The notes beneath the pieces were generated by a model. It made no database searches, was not told where the DNA came from, and worked only from the letters and a program-made list of their open reading frames with translations. A program made the position numbers and the translations under genes. DNA of 30,819 nt from a virus: positions 1 through 30,819 of the IMG/VR virus record IMGVR_UViG_3300032085_001675. One strand, written 5' to 3'. Shown here piece after piece: positions 4,433 through 9,861 of the stretch (the first letter of the stretch is position 1; every line of letters begins with the position of its first letter).

Positions 4433-5452
4433 TCAGACCGCCAGGGCTGCGAACGCGGACCGCTTGGCCTCCTGCACCGCGTGCCGCTCGATCGCCCGGA
4501 ACGCACGGGCGTCGGCGGCAGCGTCACCGTCGGAGCCCTGCACCGGGATCACGTGGTCGAAGTACTCCACGATGGCCTGGTACCCGGCCCACCGGGTGCC
4601 CTTGATCCGCTCCTGCGTCGGCGCGGTCAGGAGCCCGCGGATGGTGTCCATCTTCTCGATGTGGCGCCGCTTGACCGCCTCCGCCGCGTCCTTCTCCGGC
4701 GCGCCGAAGACCTTCGTGAGCGCGGCGTCGAACTTCTTGTCGGTCAGCGTCTCCTGGATCATCTTCTCCGCCTCGGCCTGGAACGCCTCCTGGTAGCCGA
4801 AGGTCAGGTCGAGGGCCTGCCGAACCTGCTCGATGTTCCGCTTCGCGTTCACCGTGTGCCGCACGGTGAAGATCTGCTTCGCGGAGCGCACCGCAGCGGC
4901 CTGGGTGTTCGCGCACACCACCCGCACGGGCGTGATCATGACCTGGAACCCGGTGCTGCCGTCGTGGCTGTTGCGGGCGGCCAGGTACATGTCGACCTGG
5001 TCCTCCCCGCCGACGAGCATGTGGTTCGGCAGCTTCATCGTGACGAACACCTGCCGCCCGCCCTTCAGGCTCCCGGCGGTCTCGAAGTGGGCTCCGCCCT
5101 CGTCGACCAGGGTGTTCAGGAACTCGGCGTGCTCCTCGTTCTGCACCGGCGTGTAGAGCGAGCCGACGACCCCGAGGACCTCCGGCTCGCCCGTCTTCGG
5201 GTGCGTACGCACGGAGGCGAAGGACCCGGGCACGTCCAGGACGGTCTCCCGCGCGGTCTCGCCCTCCCCGACGGTGACGGAGGTCGTCAGCGGCTCCTTG
5301 CGGACGTCCCAGCCTCCGAGCTGCGCGTGGGTCATGGCCTCCTCGGCGGTGAACTCCTGCGGGAGCACGGTGCCCAGGCGGTGCCAGGCGTGCTGGCGGG
5401 CGGAGACGAACGCCGCGGTGCCGTCGGTGTGGGTCTCGATCTCGTGTGCCAT
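4433..5452 (-). CDS. DUF932-type phage/plasmid protein
   Basis: A 339-residue protein starting MAHEIETHTDGTAAFVSARQ at ATG 5452, behind CGAAGGAGCCCCCGA. Recognisable family features are the N-terminal AWHRLGTVL, the LGGWDVRKEPL segment, the central MYLAARNSHDGSTGFQV and VRVVCANTQAAA, and the helical FTVRHTVNAKRNIEQVRQAL. These fit the DUF932 (phage/plasmid-related) family, whose members occur on phages and plasmids and have no settled biochemical role. Length is normal for the family. It is driven leftward by promoter copy 6 and lies head-to-head with the ParB/methyltransferase gene, sharing a 112-bp intergenic region. An in-frame extension upstream of 5452 is rejected because it would cover the promoter. 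Confidence 0.85.
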   Translation of the reverse strand: MAHEIETHTDGTAAFVSARQHAWHRLGTVLPQEFTAEEAMTHAQLGGWDVRKEPLTTSVTVGEGETARETVLDVPGSFASVRTHPKTGEPEVLGVVGSLYTPVQNEEHAEFLNTLVDEGGAHFETAGSLKGGRQVFVTMKLPNHMLVGGEDQVDMYLAARNSHDGSTGFQVMITPVRVVCANTQAAAVRSAKQIFTVRHTVNAKRNIEQVRQALDLTFGYQEAFQAEAEKMIQETLTDKKFDAALTKVFGAPEKDAAEAVKRRHIEKMDTIRGLLTAPTQERIKGTRWAGYQAIVEYFDHVIPVQGSDGDAAADARAFRAIERHAVQEAKRSAFAALAV

Positions 5453-5509
5453 TCGGGGGCTCCTTCGGGTGATCCGCCCTGGTGGGCGGGGGGATTGCTG
5501 ACACCAGCG

Positions 5510-5538
5510 AACGTAAGGCCACGCCGGACGACCGTCAA
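5510..5538 (-). promoter_or_regulatory. repeated promoter module, copy 6
   Basis: Minus strand: -35 TTGACG (5538-5533), 17-bp spacer, -10 TACGTT (5515-5510), the best -10 of the set, then GTGTCAGC and the Shine-Dalgarno of the gene at 5452. The spacer differs from the other copies. It lies in the divergent gap upstream of the rightward gene at 5565, whose own promoter I could not identify. Confidence 0.75.
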
Positions 5539-5564
5539 CCTCCACCGGACAGGAGTTCGTACCC

Positions 5565-7886
5565 GTGATCCACGACCTGACGACGGAGCGCGTGCCCGTA
5601 GCCGAGCTGCGCACGTTCCACCGGAACCCGCGCCAGGGCGACGTGGCCGCCATCGCGACGAGCCTGCGGGTCAACGGGCAGTACCGGCCCATCGTGGTCA
5701 ACCGCGGCACGCACACCGGCCGCGCGCAGGAGGTCCTCGCCGGGAACCACACCCTGATGGGTGCCCGGGACCTCGGCTGGGACGACATCGCCGTGTCCTA
5801 CGTCGACGTGGACGACGACCAGGCGTCCCGCATCGTCGCCGCGGACAACCGCACCGCGGACCTCGGCGGCTACGACGACCGGCTCCTCGCCGAGCTCCTC
5901 GGGGACCTCGACGATCTCGACGGCACCGGCTACGACGCCGGGGACCTCGACGAGATCCTCGCCCGCCTGCAGGACGACCCCGATGGCGAGCCCGGCGGCG
6001 ACGGAGACGACGACGATGACGATGACGAGCAGGACCGGCCGTCGCTCGCGGACCGCTTCCTCGTCCCGCCGTTCGACGTCCTGGATGCCCGGCAGGGCTG
6101 GTGGCGGCAGCGCAAGCGCGCCTGGCTGTCGCTCGGTATCCGCTCCGAGGAGGGGCGGGACGCGCTCTACACCGACGGGGAGCGCACCGGCGACGGCCTG
6201 ATCTTCGGGTCCGCGTCGGGGGCGGACCCGGACTTCTACCGCAAGAAGTCCGCCGTGGAGGCCGCGCTCGGCCGCACCTTCGGCGCCGGGGAGTTCGAGA
6301 CCAGCGAGCACTACGTGCCGCCGTCCTCGGCCGCCGTGCAGACCGGCACGTCCGTGTTCGACCCGGTGCTGTGCGAGCTGGTCTACCGCTGGTTCTCCCC
6401 GCAGGGCGGCACCGTCCTCGACCCCTTCGCCGGGGGCTCCGTGCGCGGCCTGGTCGCCGCGATGCTCGGGCGGGACTACCGCGGCAACGACCTCTCCGAG
6501 ATCCAGGTCGCGGCGAACGCCCAGCAGGCCGAGGTGTTCGCCTCCCGCGACCTCATCGACCCGCAGCGGGTCACCTGGACCCAGGGCGACTCCCGGGAGT
6601 GGGCCCTCGGGCTCGAGCCCGCCTCCGTGGACCTCCTGTTCTCCTGCCCGCCGTACCTGTGGCTGGAGCGCTACGACAAGGACAACGCGGACGACCTGTC
6701 GAACATGAGCGCGGAGGACTTCGAGCACGCCTACACCGACGTGCTCGCCCGCTCCGCGGCAGCGCTCCGCGAGGACCGCTACGCCGTCCTCGTCGTCGGC
6801 GACGTGCGCGACTCCAAGGGCCGCCTGCACGACTTCCGGGGGATGACGATCCGAGCCGCGCACGCCGCCGGACTCACCCTCCACAACGGCGCCGTCCTGA
6901 TCACCCCCGTCGGCAGCCTCGCGATGCGCGGCGGCAGGCAGTTCGAGGCCTCCCGCGTGATGGGCCGGAGCCACCAGGACGTGCTGGTGTTCGTCAAGGG
7001 CGACCGGCGGAAGGCCGCCGACGCCTGCGGCGACGTGACCACCGCGCTCCCGGACGATCTCGCGGCAGCGTTCGAGGACGCGCCCACCGTGGACGGAGAC
7101 GGAGACCTCACCCCCGAGGTCCCGCCGGACTACACCCCCGAGGTGACGCCGGTGGAGACCCACGCCGGGGTGCTCGTGAAGCGTGACGACGCCTGGTCCG
7201 TCGGCGGAGCGTCCGGGGCGAAGGCCCGCACCATGTACCGGCTCGCGTCCGAGCGCGGCTCCCCGGGCATCATCACGGCCGGGGCCCGCCGGTCCCCGCA
7301 GATCGAGCGGGCCGCGCTCACCGCCCAGGCCCTCGGCATCCAGTGCCGGGTGCACGTACCCGCGGGGGCCGACACCGACGAGACCCGCACGTGCGAGCGC
7401 GCCGGGGCGGAGGTCGTCCGCCACCAGGCCGGGCGCCTGTCCGTGCTCAAGGCCCGGTACCGCACCGACGCCGAGCAGCACCCGAAGTGGCTCGCCGTCC
7501 CCTTCGGGATGGCGATGCAGGAGTACCGGGGCGACGTAGCGGCGCAGGCCGAGCACCTGCCCGCCATCGAGGGCCGCCTCGTCGTCCCCTGCGGCTCCGG
7601 CACGACCCTCGTCGGCATCCTGCAGGGCCTCGGCCCGGAGCACGCCGACACCGAGATCCTCGCCGTCCAGATCGGGCACGACCCCACCGGCACCCTCGAC
7701 GAGCTCGCCGACGGCTGGCGGGACCGCGTCACCCTCGTCGAAGCCCCGGAGGCGTTCGACGACGACGCCCCCCGCACCAGGCTCGGCGACCTCCGGCTCG
7801 ACCCCATGTACGAGGCGAAGTGCCTGCCCCACCTCCACGAGGGAGACCTCCTCTGGTGCGTCGGCAGGCGCACCAGCGCCACCTGA
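5565..7886 (+). CDS. ParB-like / DNA methyltransferase / PLP-enzyme fusion
   Basis: 773 residues; GTG at 5565 behind CAGGAG (5550-5555). Residues 1-100 are a ParB/Srx-like domain (VPVAELRTFHRNPR, GNHTLMGARDLG). An Asp-rich linker (about 140-162) follows. Residues 165-500 are a DNA methyltransferase: motif I D286-PFAGGS binds S-adenosylmethionine, and motif IV is S360-CPPY, with Cys where amino-methyltransferases have D, N or S. Residues 530-773 look like a compact fold-type-II PLP enzyme of the ACC deaminase/D-cysteine desulfhydrase type: KRDDAWSVGGASGAK with probable Schiff-base K553, phosphate loop G677-SGTT, and LDPMYEAK at 745-752. The domain calls are seen in sequence; a role in DNA modification or hypermodification is inference. 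It lies between the early block and terminase. I do not see partner kinases or nucleotide enzymes in the window. Confidence 0.85.
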   Translation: MIHDLTTERVPVAELRTFHRNPRQGDVAAIATSLRVNGQYRPIVVNRGTHTGRAQEVLAGNHTLMGARDLGWDDIAVSYVDVDDDQASRIVAADNRTADLGGYDDRLLAELLGDLDDLDGTGYDAGDLDEILARLQDDPDGEPGGDGDDDDDDDEQDRPSLADRFLVPPFDVLDARQGWWRQRKRAWLSLGIRSEEGRDALYTDGERTGDGLIFGSASGADPDFYRKKSAVEAALGRTFGAGEFETSEHYVPPSSAAVQTGTSVFDPVLCELVYRWFSPQGGTVLDPFAGGSVRGLVAAMLGRDYRGNDLSEIQVAANAQQAEVFASRDLIDPQRVTWTQGDSREWALGLEPASVDLLFSCPPYLWLERYDKDNADDLSNMSAEDFEHAYTDVLARSAAALREDRYAVLVVGDVRDSKGRLHDFRGMTIRAAHAAGLTLHNGAVLITPVGSLAMRGGRQFEASRVMGRSHQDVLVFVKGDRRKAADACGDVTTALPDDLAAAFEDAPTVDGDGDLTPEVPPDYTPEVTPVETHAGVLVKRDDAWSVGGASGAKARTMYRLASERGSPGIITAGARRSPQIERAALTAQALGIQCRVHVPAGADTDETRTCERAGAEVVRHQAGRLSVLKARYRTDAEQHPKWLAVPFGMAMQEYRGDVAAQAEHLPAIEGRLVVPCGSGTTLVGILQGLGPEHADTEILAVQIGHDPTGTLDELADGWRDRVTLVEAPEAFDDDAPRTRLGDLRLDPMYEAKCLPHLHEGDLLWCVGRRTSAT

Positions 7887-7945: not shown

Positions 7946-8551
7946 GTGGCCGCACGGCCCACACCACGCACCAAGCGCGGACAGGCCGACACACCGGCCA
8001 CCACCAGCCGAAAGACCACCAAGGCGAAGCCCACCCCGACGGAGGGGGGCGCACGTTCGGGCCCGGGCACGCGCGAGGCTCCGCGGAAGGTCACCGAGTC
8101 GGAGCGCAGGCGGATGCGGGCCCGCGCCGCGGACGGGGCCTCCGTGCGGGACATCGCGCAGGAGTTCGGGCGGTCGACGGCGACGGTGTCCGGGGTGTGC
8201 TCGGACCTCATGGCCGACCGCCGGGAGCGCACCGCGGCAGCGTCGGAGACCCGGTCGGTGGAGGCCGCGGAGAAGCGGCAGAAGCTCCTCGACCGCCTCC
8301 TGGACGCGTCCGGCGGTGCGCTGGCGCGGTGGGCGCGCGTCGGGCACGACGATCACCAGGGCGCGGCGCAGGAGGCCCGCTCACTGTCAGCCGTGATCTC
8401 GGCCTACTCCCGGCTCGATGACCGGCACGCCCGCGCGCAGGGCTCCGGCGGGCAGGCCGAGGTCGATGTGTTCCTGCAGCACCTCGCCGGGGGCGCGGTC
8501 GCGCCGGAGTACCTGCCCGACGAGGGCGACGACGACGGGGTGCCGGAGTGA
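7946..8551 (+). CDS. terS: terminase small subunit
   Basis: 201 residues, GTG at 7946 after GGAGGTGAACA. The N-terminal 45 residues are basic and Thr/Pro-rich, probably disordered. Residues 50-80 form a helix-turn-helix (ESERRRMRARAADGASVRDI, then AQEFGRSTATVSGVCSDL), the DNA-recognition part expected of a small terminase. The rest is helical and ends acidic (DEGDDDGVPE). Its stop overlaps the start of the large terminase (GTGA, 8548-8551). In the family this subunit recognises the packaging site and loads the large subunit. The identity rests mostly on position and HTH. Confidence 0.75.
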   Translation: MAARPTPRTKRGQADTPATTSRKTTKAKPTPTEGGARSGPGTREAPRKVTESERRRMRARAADGASVRDIAQEFGRSTATVSGVCSDLMADRRERTAAASETRSVEAAEKRQKLLDRLLDASGGALARWARVGHDDHQGAAQEARSLSAVISAYSRLDDRHARAQGSGGQAEVDVFLQHLAGGAVAPEYLPDEGDDDGVPE

Positions 8552-9861
8552 TCAAGAAGCTCGCGGGGAAGCAGGCCGCGTCGGTCGCGTACGCCTGCGC
8601 CCGCATCAACCTCTGGGAGGGCTCGGTCCGGTCCTCCAAGACCGTGTCGTCGCTTGTGGCCTGGCTGCAGTTCGTGCGCCAGGCCCCGCGCGGGGACCTC
8701 CTGATGGCGGGGCGCAGCGAGCGCACGCTGCGCCGGAACGTGATCAACCCGCTGGTGGACTGGCTCGGCGAGGCCCGCTGCCGCTACGTCGCCGGAACCG
8801 GCGAGCTATGGCTCCTCGGACGGCGGGTGTACGTCGCCGGAGCCAACGACGAATCCAGCCAGGAGCGCATCCGCGGGCTCACCCTGGTGGGCGCCTACGT
8901 CGACGAGGCCAGCACGGTGCCGGAGTCGTTCTGGACGATGCTGGTGTCCCGCCTGTCGGTGGAGGGCGCCCGCCTGTTCGGGACGACGAACCCGGACGCC
9001 CCCGCGCACTGGCTGAAGAAGCGGTGGCTCGACCGGGCGTCTCTGCACCTGCCCGGGGACGGCCCGGCACGGCTCCGGCCCTGCACCGCGTGCGGCCGGA
9101 AGGCCTGCCCCGTCGGGGACCACGACGACGACGAGCGCCTGGACCTGCACCGCTACAGCTTCCGCCTGCACGACAACCCGCACCTGCCCCGCTCCTACGT
9201 GCGCGCCGTGTCCCGCGAGTACGTCGGCCTCTGGTACCGGCGCTTCATCCTCGGGGAGTGGGTCGTCGCCGAGGGCGCGGTCTACGACATGTTCGACCCC
9301 GCCCGCCACGTCGTCTCCGCGCTGCCGGAGGGGGAGTGGATCGCGCAGGACCTCGGCACCGGCGTCGACTACGGCACCCGGAACCCGTTCGCCGCGGTCC
9401 GGCTCACCCTCACCAACAAGGGGCGGCTCTACGTGCCGGGGGAGTGGGGGCACGACCCCGCCTCGGCGCGGCGCCAGCTCACCGACGCGGACTACTCCCG
9501 CGAGCTACGCCGCTGGCTGGGGAAGCGCCCGCCCGGCTGGGTGTGCGTCGACCCGTCCGCCGCGTCGTTCAAGCTGCAGCTCTACCGCGACGGCGTCCCG
9601 TCGATCACCGACGCGGACAACGCCGTCGTGGACGGCATCCGCACCGTCGCGTCCCTGCTGGGCACCGACCGGCTCGTCCTGCACTCCTCGGCCGCCGGGC
9701 TCCTCGACGAGCTACCCGGCTACTCCTGGGACGACAAGGCAGCCGGGCGTGGGGAGGACCGGCCCGTGAAGGTCGCCGACCACTTCTGCGACGCGCTGCG
9801 CTACGCCGTCGCGACCACCGAACCCCTGTGGCTGCCACACCTGGTGCCAGCCGCGGCGTGA
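8548..9861 (+). CDS. terL: terminase large subunit (packaging ATPase/nuclease)
   Basis: 437 residues, normal for PBSX/Terminase_3-type enzymes. N-terminal ATPase: Walker A G25-SVRSSKT and Walker B YVDEAS with D119-E120, followed by GTTNPDAPAHWL, the usual coupling motif region. The C-terminal half is the RNase H-like nuclease: GVDYGTRNPFAAV with D274, then VCVDPSAASFK and a late SWDDK/VKVADHFCDALRYA segment with the closing acidic residues. It pumps DNA into the prohead and cuts it. A Cys-rich insert (CTACGRKACPVGDHDDDE, around 173-190) between the two domains may bind zinc. GTG start overlaps the terS stop. Confidence 0.93.
   Translation: MIKKLAGKQAASVAYACARINLWEGSVRSSKTVSSLVAWLQFVRQAPRGDLLMAGRSERTLRRNVINPLVDWLGEARCRYVAGTGELWLLGRRVYVAGANDESSQERIRGLTLVGAYVDEASTVPESFWTMLVSRLSVEGARLFGTTNPDAPAHWLKKRWLDRASLHLPGDGPARLRPCTACGRKACPVGDHDDDERLDLHRYSFRLHDNPHLPRSYVRAVSREYVGLWYRRFILGEWVVAEGAVYDMFDPARHVVSALPEGEWIAQDLGTGVDYGTRNPFAAVRLTLTNKGRLYVPGEWGHDPASARRQLTDADYSRELRRWLGKRPPGWVCVDPSAASFKLQLYRDGVPSITDADNAVVDGIRTVASLLGTDRLVLHSSAAGLLDELPGYSWDDKAAGRGEDRPVKVADHFCDALRYAVATTEPLWLPHLVPAAA

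Follow-up and report, generated by a model that had tools for sequence, protein, structure and literature searches.

A phage protein joining ParB-like, methyltransferase and PLP-enzyme domains, and its possible role in DNA base hypermodification

What is a PLP enzyme doing in the same polypeptide as a phage DNA methyltransferase? The question is raised by a gene in a 30,819-nucleotide viral DNA fragment (IMG/VR record IMGVR_UViG_3300032085_001675), which is hereafter called, as a whole, the window. The gene (5565..7886, plus strand; GTG start) encodes a protein of 773 amino acids. An initial annotation described this protein as a fusion of ParB-like, DNA methyltransferase and PLP-enzyme domains that might build a larger base modification. 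Mapping of the open reading frame and its domains confirmed that the fusion and its three domains are real and located all the motifs named for the PLP enzyme (KRDD, 539-542; SGAK, 550-553; GSGTT, 677-681; LDPMYEAK, 745-752).

Domains of the fusion protein

The ParB-like domain (residues 4-159; 5574..6041, plus strand) is weakly recognized by Pfam alone (E=0.005), but PHROG ParB families match it with E-values down to 2.5e-57 (PHROG 723), and the family HMM with 3e-70. Within this domain, GNHT (60-63) replaces the canonical Box II arginine pair that is needed for NTP binding. A role as an SbnI/SerK-like serine kinase feeding the PLP enzyme was considered and dropped, given that ParB-methyltransferases lacking the PLP-enzyme domain are common and that Box II is degenerate here.

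The methyltransferase spans residues 160-489, all on the plus strand, and comprises an N-terminal part (160-259, PPFDVLDARQGWW..RKRAWLSLGI; 6042..6341; family HMM E=7e-54; PHROG 498 and 12517), a motif I region (261-328; 6345..6548; family HMM E=3e-37) and a motif IV region (341-489; 6585..7031; family HMM E=1e-66). The former region contains DPFAGGSVRG (6420-6449; DPFAGG at 286-291), so that motif I reads GGSVRG, and the latter contains CPPY (361-364; 6645-6656), with C instead of D/N/S in (D/N/S)PP(Y/F). The DPFAGGSVRG sequence is almost invariant in 104 methyltransferase relatives, and the motif IV C is present in 103 of these. On the window protein, the N6_N4_Mtase profile (PF01555) scores 23.1 bits against a cut-off of 26.7, which the homologues in phages Pam4 and ZS04 pass; NCBIfam yields weak matches only, to adenine methyltransferases, and the nearest solved relative is 2zie, a putative modification methylase. 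The CPPY form of motif IV hints at an enzyme acting on an exocyclic amine.

The C-terminal domain (524-772; 7134..7880, plus strand) is recognized as PALP, a fold type II PLP enzyme, by Pfam (PF00291; E=4.2e-12; 46.5 bits against a gathering cut-off of 35). The AlphaFold2 model of this domain, built from an alignment with 31 homologues, has pLDDT 95.7 and pTM 0.92; its best PDB match is Salmonella D-cysteine desulfhydrase (Foldseek E=1.6e-13; VIA Z ~24), with Z of 24.2 and 2.9 A over 248 residues for 4d9c and Z of 22-24 for ACC deaminases, and O-phosphoserine sulfhydrylase and CysM are also among the fold matches. The resemblance to PLP enzymes by Pfam, PHROG and Foldseek/VIA is confirmed to be far beyond chance, and both the model and the Z-scores agree with the assignment, made in the initial annotation, to the ACC deaminase/D-cysteine desulfhydrase kind of fold type II enzymes. 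Scores against the curated families of these two enzymes are far below the cut-offs (23.5 bits against 289.4 for the D-cysteine desulfhydrase family TIGR01275; 20.8 against 550 for the ACC deaminase family PRK14045). A model of a full-length insertion-type protein has pLDDT 68; apart from PALP and some of the methyltransferase, its quality is poor.

The predicted Schiff-base lysine, K553 (7221..7223, plus strand), on whose conservation the initial annotation had made its reading depend, is present in 31 of 31 aligned PALP domains of the subfamily to which the window protein belongs (subfamily A), and an equivalent lysine is kept in the more divergent subfamily B. Its profile alignment to known PLP lysines, including the PLP-lysine region of D-cysteine desulfhydrase, and the fold match suggest that K553 faces the PLP pocket. 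In the putative PLP phosphate loop, GSG (677-679; 7593..7601, plus strand), G677 and S678 are invariant in the 31 homologues and G679 is found in at least 90% of them. Tyr749-Glu750-x-Lys752 (Y749-E750 at 7809..7814, plus strand) is, like K553 and the GSG loop, conserved in nearly all relatives, and the window YEAK aligns with YTGK of D-cysteine desulfhydrase (DCyD), making the tyrosine equivalent to DCyD Tyr287 and Tyr294 of ACC deaminase (ACCD), and the glutamate to ACCD Glu295. In the solved enzymes, DCyD Tyr287 acts as the base for alpha-proton removal, whereas ACCD Glu295 sits at the pyridine nitrogen (PMC3344862); the Tyr-Glu pair of the window PALP therefore appears ACC deaminase-like, and a carboxylate in this position strengthens PLP as an electron sink. 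Thus, PALP shares the fold, Lys, Ser and Tyr with both enzymes, and the Glu with ACCD, but is about 80 residues shorter (~255 against ~330 aa) and has Pro at ACCD/DCyD Asn79, within the SPQ signature (577-579; 7293..7301, plus strand) common to the Ackermannviridae PALPs. The short length and the loss of Asn79 could be taken to indicate a catalytically silent structural or dimerisation domain, which we consider highly improbable because the Lys, GSG and Tyr-Glu/Asp-x-Lys are conserved across both divergent subfamilies.

Around the fusion, the window fragment encodes only structural, terminase, lysis and unknown proteins. A DUF932 gene (4433-5788, minus strand) is divergent from the fusion and has homologues at two related loci (L038 and L040), and one window ORF encodes a Sortase domain (PF04203, E=2e-20). 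The large terminase (8548-9861) is ~50% identical to those of Streptomyces phages, such as Austintatious, which suggests an actinobacterial host.

Linkage of PALP with the methyltransferase in phages and prophages

Scanning IMG/VR with a three-sequence PALP alignment yielded 54 loci, 40 of which (L009-L048) are close and form subfamily A. At 29 of the 40, PALP and methyltransferase parts belong to one ORF, mostly with PALP inserted in the methyltransferase; the C-terminal, window-like arrangement is found in L016 and L019, an N-terminal PALP in L034 and a split arrangement in L031 and L037. Most of the remaining subfamily A loci have a DNA methyltransferase gene beside or near PALP, including four non-redundant loci in which a separate PALP gene adjoins the methyltransferase (L011, L033, L039 and L045); L043 has a different N6/N4-type methyltransferase nearby, and none was seen in the available flanks of L032, L044 and L046. 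A group of 14 marine loci carries a more distant PALP, with a weakly N6_N4-like methyltransferase within a few kb where the flank suffices. In the cultured Pseudanabaena phage Pam4 and Erythrobacter phages ZS04 and R6L, PALP is inserted between methyltransferase motifs I and IV. The search for the same fusion in other phages, suggested by the initial annotation, thus revealed at least five architectures (motif I/IV insertion, C-terminal, N-terminal, split halves and separate gene) as well as a coupled gene pair. Because the pairing recurs in so many architectures, the methyltransferase itself appears to be the partner that matters.

A reciprocal scan with the methyltransferase returned at least 569 relatives, and PALP is present at 25 of the best 80 loci among these. 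At 23 of the best 80, it is a separate, divergent protein of ~234 aa with the Lys kept, encoded beside the methyltransferase (subfamily B), and at 2 more it is inserted. The Erythrobacter phage fusions carry a subfamily B PALP, and Microcystis phage Mae-JY30 is a cultured example of the subfamily; the Mae-JY30 PALP gene (L144 6099-6824) is annotated as 'DNA modification methylase' in the public record. Searching bacterial genomes with a subfamily B PALP alone produced 29 loci, mainly from Rhodobacterales and Rhizobiales, whereas an earlier scan of bacterial-genome contigs with another PALP alignment gave no match. The methyltransferase gene lies directly upstream of PALP and overlaps it at 21 of the 29 loci (by 4 nt in 17), and in one case the two form a single ORF, the remainder being short or degenerate matches. 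As these loci were chosen by PALP and not by the methyltransferase, the linkage is not a query artefact. The fusion is, then, not a one-off: dozens of phages and alphaproteobacterial prophages carry the pair.

Such linkage bears on the explanation that the methyltransferase performs ordinary m4C or m6A methylation while PALP catalyses an unrelated reaction on small molecules (desulfhydration, deamination or beta-replacement) that aids infection or acts as a source of sulfur or amino acids. The closest solved relatives of PALP, D-cysteine desulfhydrase and ACC deaminase, are compatible with this explanation, as is a gene annotated as PAPS-reductase-like near PALP in Erythrobacter phages. However, that PALP is inserted within the methyltransferase, and that the two are coupled in dozens of phages, argues for a shared substrate, and we regard an unrelated reaction as unlikely. 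Sulfur chemistry involving PAPS reductase was rejected because this gene lies near the Erythrobacter genes only and no PAPS-reductase cluster recurs around PALP in the neighbour clustering.

The same clustering detected no common accessory modification gene around PALP beyond a Cys-rich CxxCxxxCC protein in a minority of loci. This protein (PF03692-like, E=2e-4 for L052) adjoins stand-alone PALP genes (L032 4833-5429, L052 6896-7444 and L060 6911-7444); in L038 and L040 it forms part of the fusion, lying between PALP and motif IV. It is a possible third tailoring component. Radical SAM genes, one of them with a B12-binding domain, are found near some phage PALPs (L044 4499-5656, L048 3138-4862 and L060 7957-8979). 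In L016, an in-frame stop (682-684) splits the ParB/N-terminal part from the methyltransferase-PALP part. Some PALP-less methyltransferases are followed by a coupled gene of ~208 aa (VTREIICADALPWM...; L097 2073-2699 and L129 1026-1649), possibly another add-on enzyme.

A tree of 104 methyltransferase domains requires at least 26 changes in PALP presence, although the exact count is soft because quick-tree supports are modest and flanks are truncated at some loci; the well-supported branches alone force about five changes for the PALP-less group. Near-identical methyltransferases occur with and without PALP (L096 compared with L090 and L107). No alignment column was found that separates the PALP-containing from the PALP-less methyltransferases, and neither CPPY nor DPFAGGSVRG varies between the two sets, which is what an optional tailoring step by PALP would predict. 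The methyltransferase therefore probably transfers the same group with or without PALP, and PALP adds an extra step. The repeated gain and loss looks like that of an arms-race add-on.

Kinship to hypermodification enzymes and the proposed route

The window PALP matches phrog_3650 (E=3e-36), the PLP enzyme of Ackermannviridae, and phrog_7093 (E=2.9e-14), which is SN1_023, the PLP gene of the M6/SN1-type thymidine cassette; the reverse HMM search of PALP against Ackermannviridae proteins gave E-values of ~1e-28 to 1e-30. The nearest phage relatives are therefore PLP enzymes of hypermodified-thymidine phages, in line with the phage base-modification pathways to which the initial annotation pointed. 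Lee et al. reportedly describe amino acids installed on 5-hmdU being trimmed by PLP-dependent decarboxylases, and the Ackermannviridae and M6 PLP enzymes are on this basis presumed to be decarboxylases. The PLP enzymes known from phage DNA hypermodification all act, to our knowledge, downstream of 5-hydroxymethyl-dU. The DNA of Ackermannviridae carries 5-(2-aminoethoxy)methyl-dU (5-NeOmdU) (PMC11721090), and the SN1 thymidine-hypermodification cassette has been described (PMC9476957).

By noting that the window contains neither a kinase nor a hydroxylase, the initial annotation implied that such a partner is required. The window is a 30.8-kb fragment, and partner genes may lie outside it, so the absence of the hydroxymethylase, kinase and aGPT was tested on relatives, with the PF00303 thymidylate-synthase-family profile and the SN1 aGPT-Pplase1 and kinase as queries. 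Each query matched both positive controls, phages SN1 and Cygsa01, whereas a thymidylate-synthase-type hydroxymethylase, aGPT-Pplase1 and the kinase were found in none of the 18 methyltransferase-PALP phages; four of these are cultured phages with complete genomes. When 31 mostly non-structural proteins of Pam4 were scanned with Pfam, no other base-modification enzyme came to light. The version in which PALP acts on a base derived from a 5-hydroxymethyl-pyrimidine, with the genes for the hydroxymethylase and kinase located elsewhere in the phage, would match the surroundings in which SN1 and Cygsa01 carry their PALPs, but in the face of these results it is very unlikely. Thus, the enzyme class and the base-modification role originally proposed are supported, whereas a separate hydroxymethylase or kinase is seemingly unneeded.

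The base-modification role is well supported, and it is very likely that a base is the substrate; it is also fairly probable that PALP acts on an amino acid, either one carried on DNA or SAM. PLP enzymes need an amino group, normally that of an alpha-amino acid, and the SAM enzyme is the only constant partner of PALP. For these reasons, and on the precedent of microcin C, we tentatively propose that the fusion is a self-contained DNA-base hypermodification enzyme that puts a 3-amino-3-carboxypropyl (acp) group on a base, after which PALP decarboxylates it to an aminopropyl base. Judging by its family, the ParB-like domain would bind or load on DNA; the methyltransferase-fold domain, with SAM, would then put a group, most likely acp, on the base, leaving an amino acid tethered to it. 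Through K553, PALP would form a PLP aldimine with the amino acid thus held on the base, the most likely outcome being its decarboxylation. The product would be a positively charged 3-aminopropyl base that could block nucleases, with a terminal primary amine like those of the M6 aminoethyl and ViI aminoethoxymethyl thymidines, reached by a different route. The specific chemistry, acp and then aminopropyl, is put forward with rather less than even confidence. Known fold type II enzymes of the closest solved families catalyse elimination or ring opening, not decarboxylation. The methyltransferase family often occurs without PALP, and plain methylation would suffice there.

SAM is itself an amino acid, and methyltransferase-fold enzymes can move its 3-amino-3-carboxypropyl arm (PMC10491745). 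In microcin C, acp is transferred by MccD, which has the methyltransferase fold, and is converted to aminopropyl when the MccE PLP domain removes its carboxyl group, although these steps may also run the other way round (PMC10491745). Applied to the phage protein, the reverse order would have PALP decarboxylate SAM to dcSAM, which the fusion would channel to the methyltransferase-fold domain for transfer of the aminopropyl group, with the same product. A change of donor should, however, alter residues of the SAM site, yet no methyltransferase column segregates with PALP, and the SN1 and Ackermannviridae relatives of PALP have no such methyltransferase adjoining; we accordingly find this order improbable. 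Because the methyltransferase motifs are unchanged, transfer first and tailoring second is the order that we favour.

Beta-replacement by PALP is another conceivable reaction: capture of an aminoacrylate by the base amine would attach an amino-acid unit to the base itself, with methylation as a second mark. Fold type II enzymes do perform beta-replacement with amines or thiols, and the matches to O-phosphoserine sulfhydrylase and CysM fit such a reaction. The pathways of the nearest phage relatives, however, include an aGPT-Pplase that is annotated as the amino-acid installer, a role reportedly described by Lee et al., which makes beta-replacement on the base quite improbable.

Significance and comparison with known systems

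Neither ParB-methyltransferase fusions nor hypermodification PLP enzymes are new in themselves. A literature search confined to open-licence papers found no report of a PLP-methyltransferase combination. The abstract of Iyer et al. 2013 is said to mention base modifications from 'modified SAM derivatives', and a related methylase-PLP pairing may have been foreseen there. In the present observations, phages with no detectable 5-hmdU pathway have relatives of hypermodification PLP enzymes built into a SAM-dependent DNA methyltransferase or coupled to it, and the recurrence of this pairing across unrelated phages suggests that they possess a short, so far unrecognised way of armouring their DNA chemically. 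There is a realistic chance of a new DNA base and pathway. Conceivably, although we stop short of calling it probable, one protein or two genes suffice for phages to aminopropylate (or amino-carboxypropylate) DNA bases straight from SAM, with no hydroxymethylated precursor, giving an unrecognised base by a new route convergent with the aminoethyl, aminoethoxymethyl and putrescinyl thymidines. If true, this would extend the range of DNA modification chemistries, and it cautions that many genes now listed as plain 'DNA methylase' may do more than methylate. The carriers include cultured phages (Pam4, ZS04, R6L and Mae-JY30) and prophages of cultured Rhodobacter, Paracoccus, Sinorhizobium and their relatives; the nucleoside masses that the proposal predicts are specific, and the DNA in question is already within reach of purification.

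Among known systems, fusions of a ParB-CTPase fold with an N6_N4 methyltransferase, reported by a 2025 survey to be enriched in phages (PMC12704722), match the N-terminal two thirds of the window protein; a PLP domain has no occurrence in the text of that survey. The Ackermannviridae PLP enzyme (phrog_3650; LIMEstone1 ORF172, 'putative threonine ammonia lyase') has the SPQ, GYNxxI-type, YE[A/G]K and FW/LW-VG motifs in common with the window PALP. Unlike the window protein, it is a stand-alone enzyme of ~390 aa without the ParB-methyltransferase fusion, and its phages, unlike the 18 methyltransferase-PALP phages searched, have thymidylate-synthase-type and kinase genes. SN1_023 (phrog_7093) is likewise a homologous PALP, closest to subfamily B (3e-55 for Mae-JY30), and works with a hydroxymethylase, a kinase, aGPT-Pplases and a radical SAM enzyme.

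Two further systems resemble the proposed route in logic. In the CmoX/CmoA/CmoY pathway of carboxymethylcytosine, which relies on a C5-MTase family, Cx-SAM and an ATP ligase, with no PLP enzyme reported, tailoring follows once a methyltransferase-type enzyme has attached a handle derived from SAM, and ParB genes are often nearby (PMC12783734). The substrate of microcin C maturation is a peptide-nucleotide and not DNA, and the likeness is one of domain types; there, as proposed here for the phage fusion, a methyltransferase-fold SAM enzyme (MccD) and a PLP decarboxylase domain (MccE-N) act sequentially on one substrate (PMC10491745).
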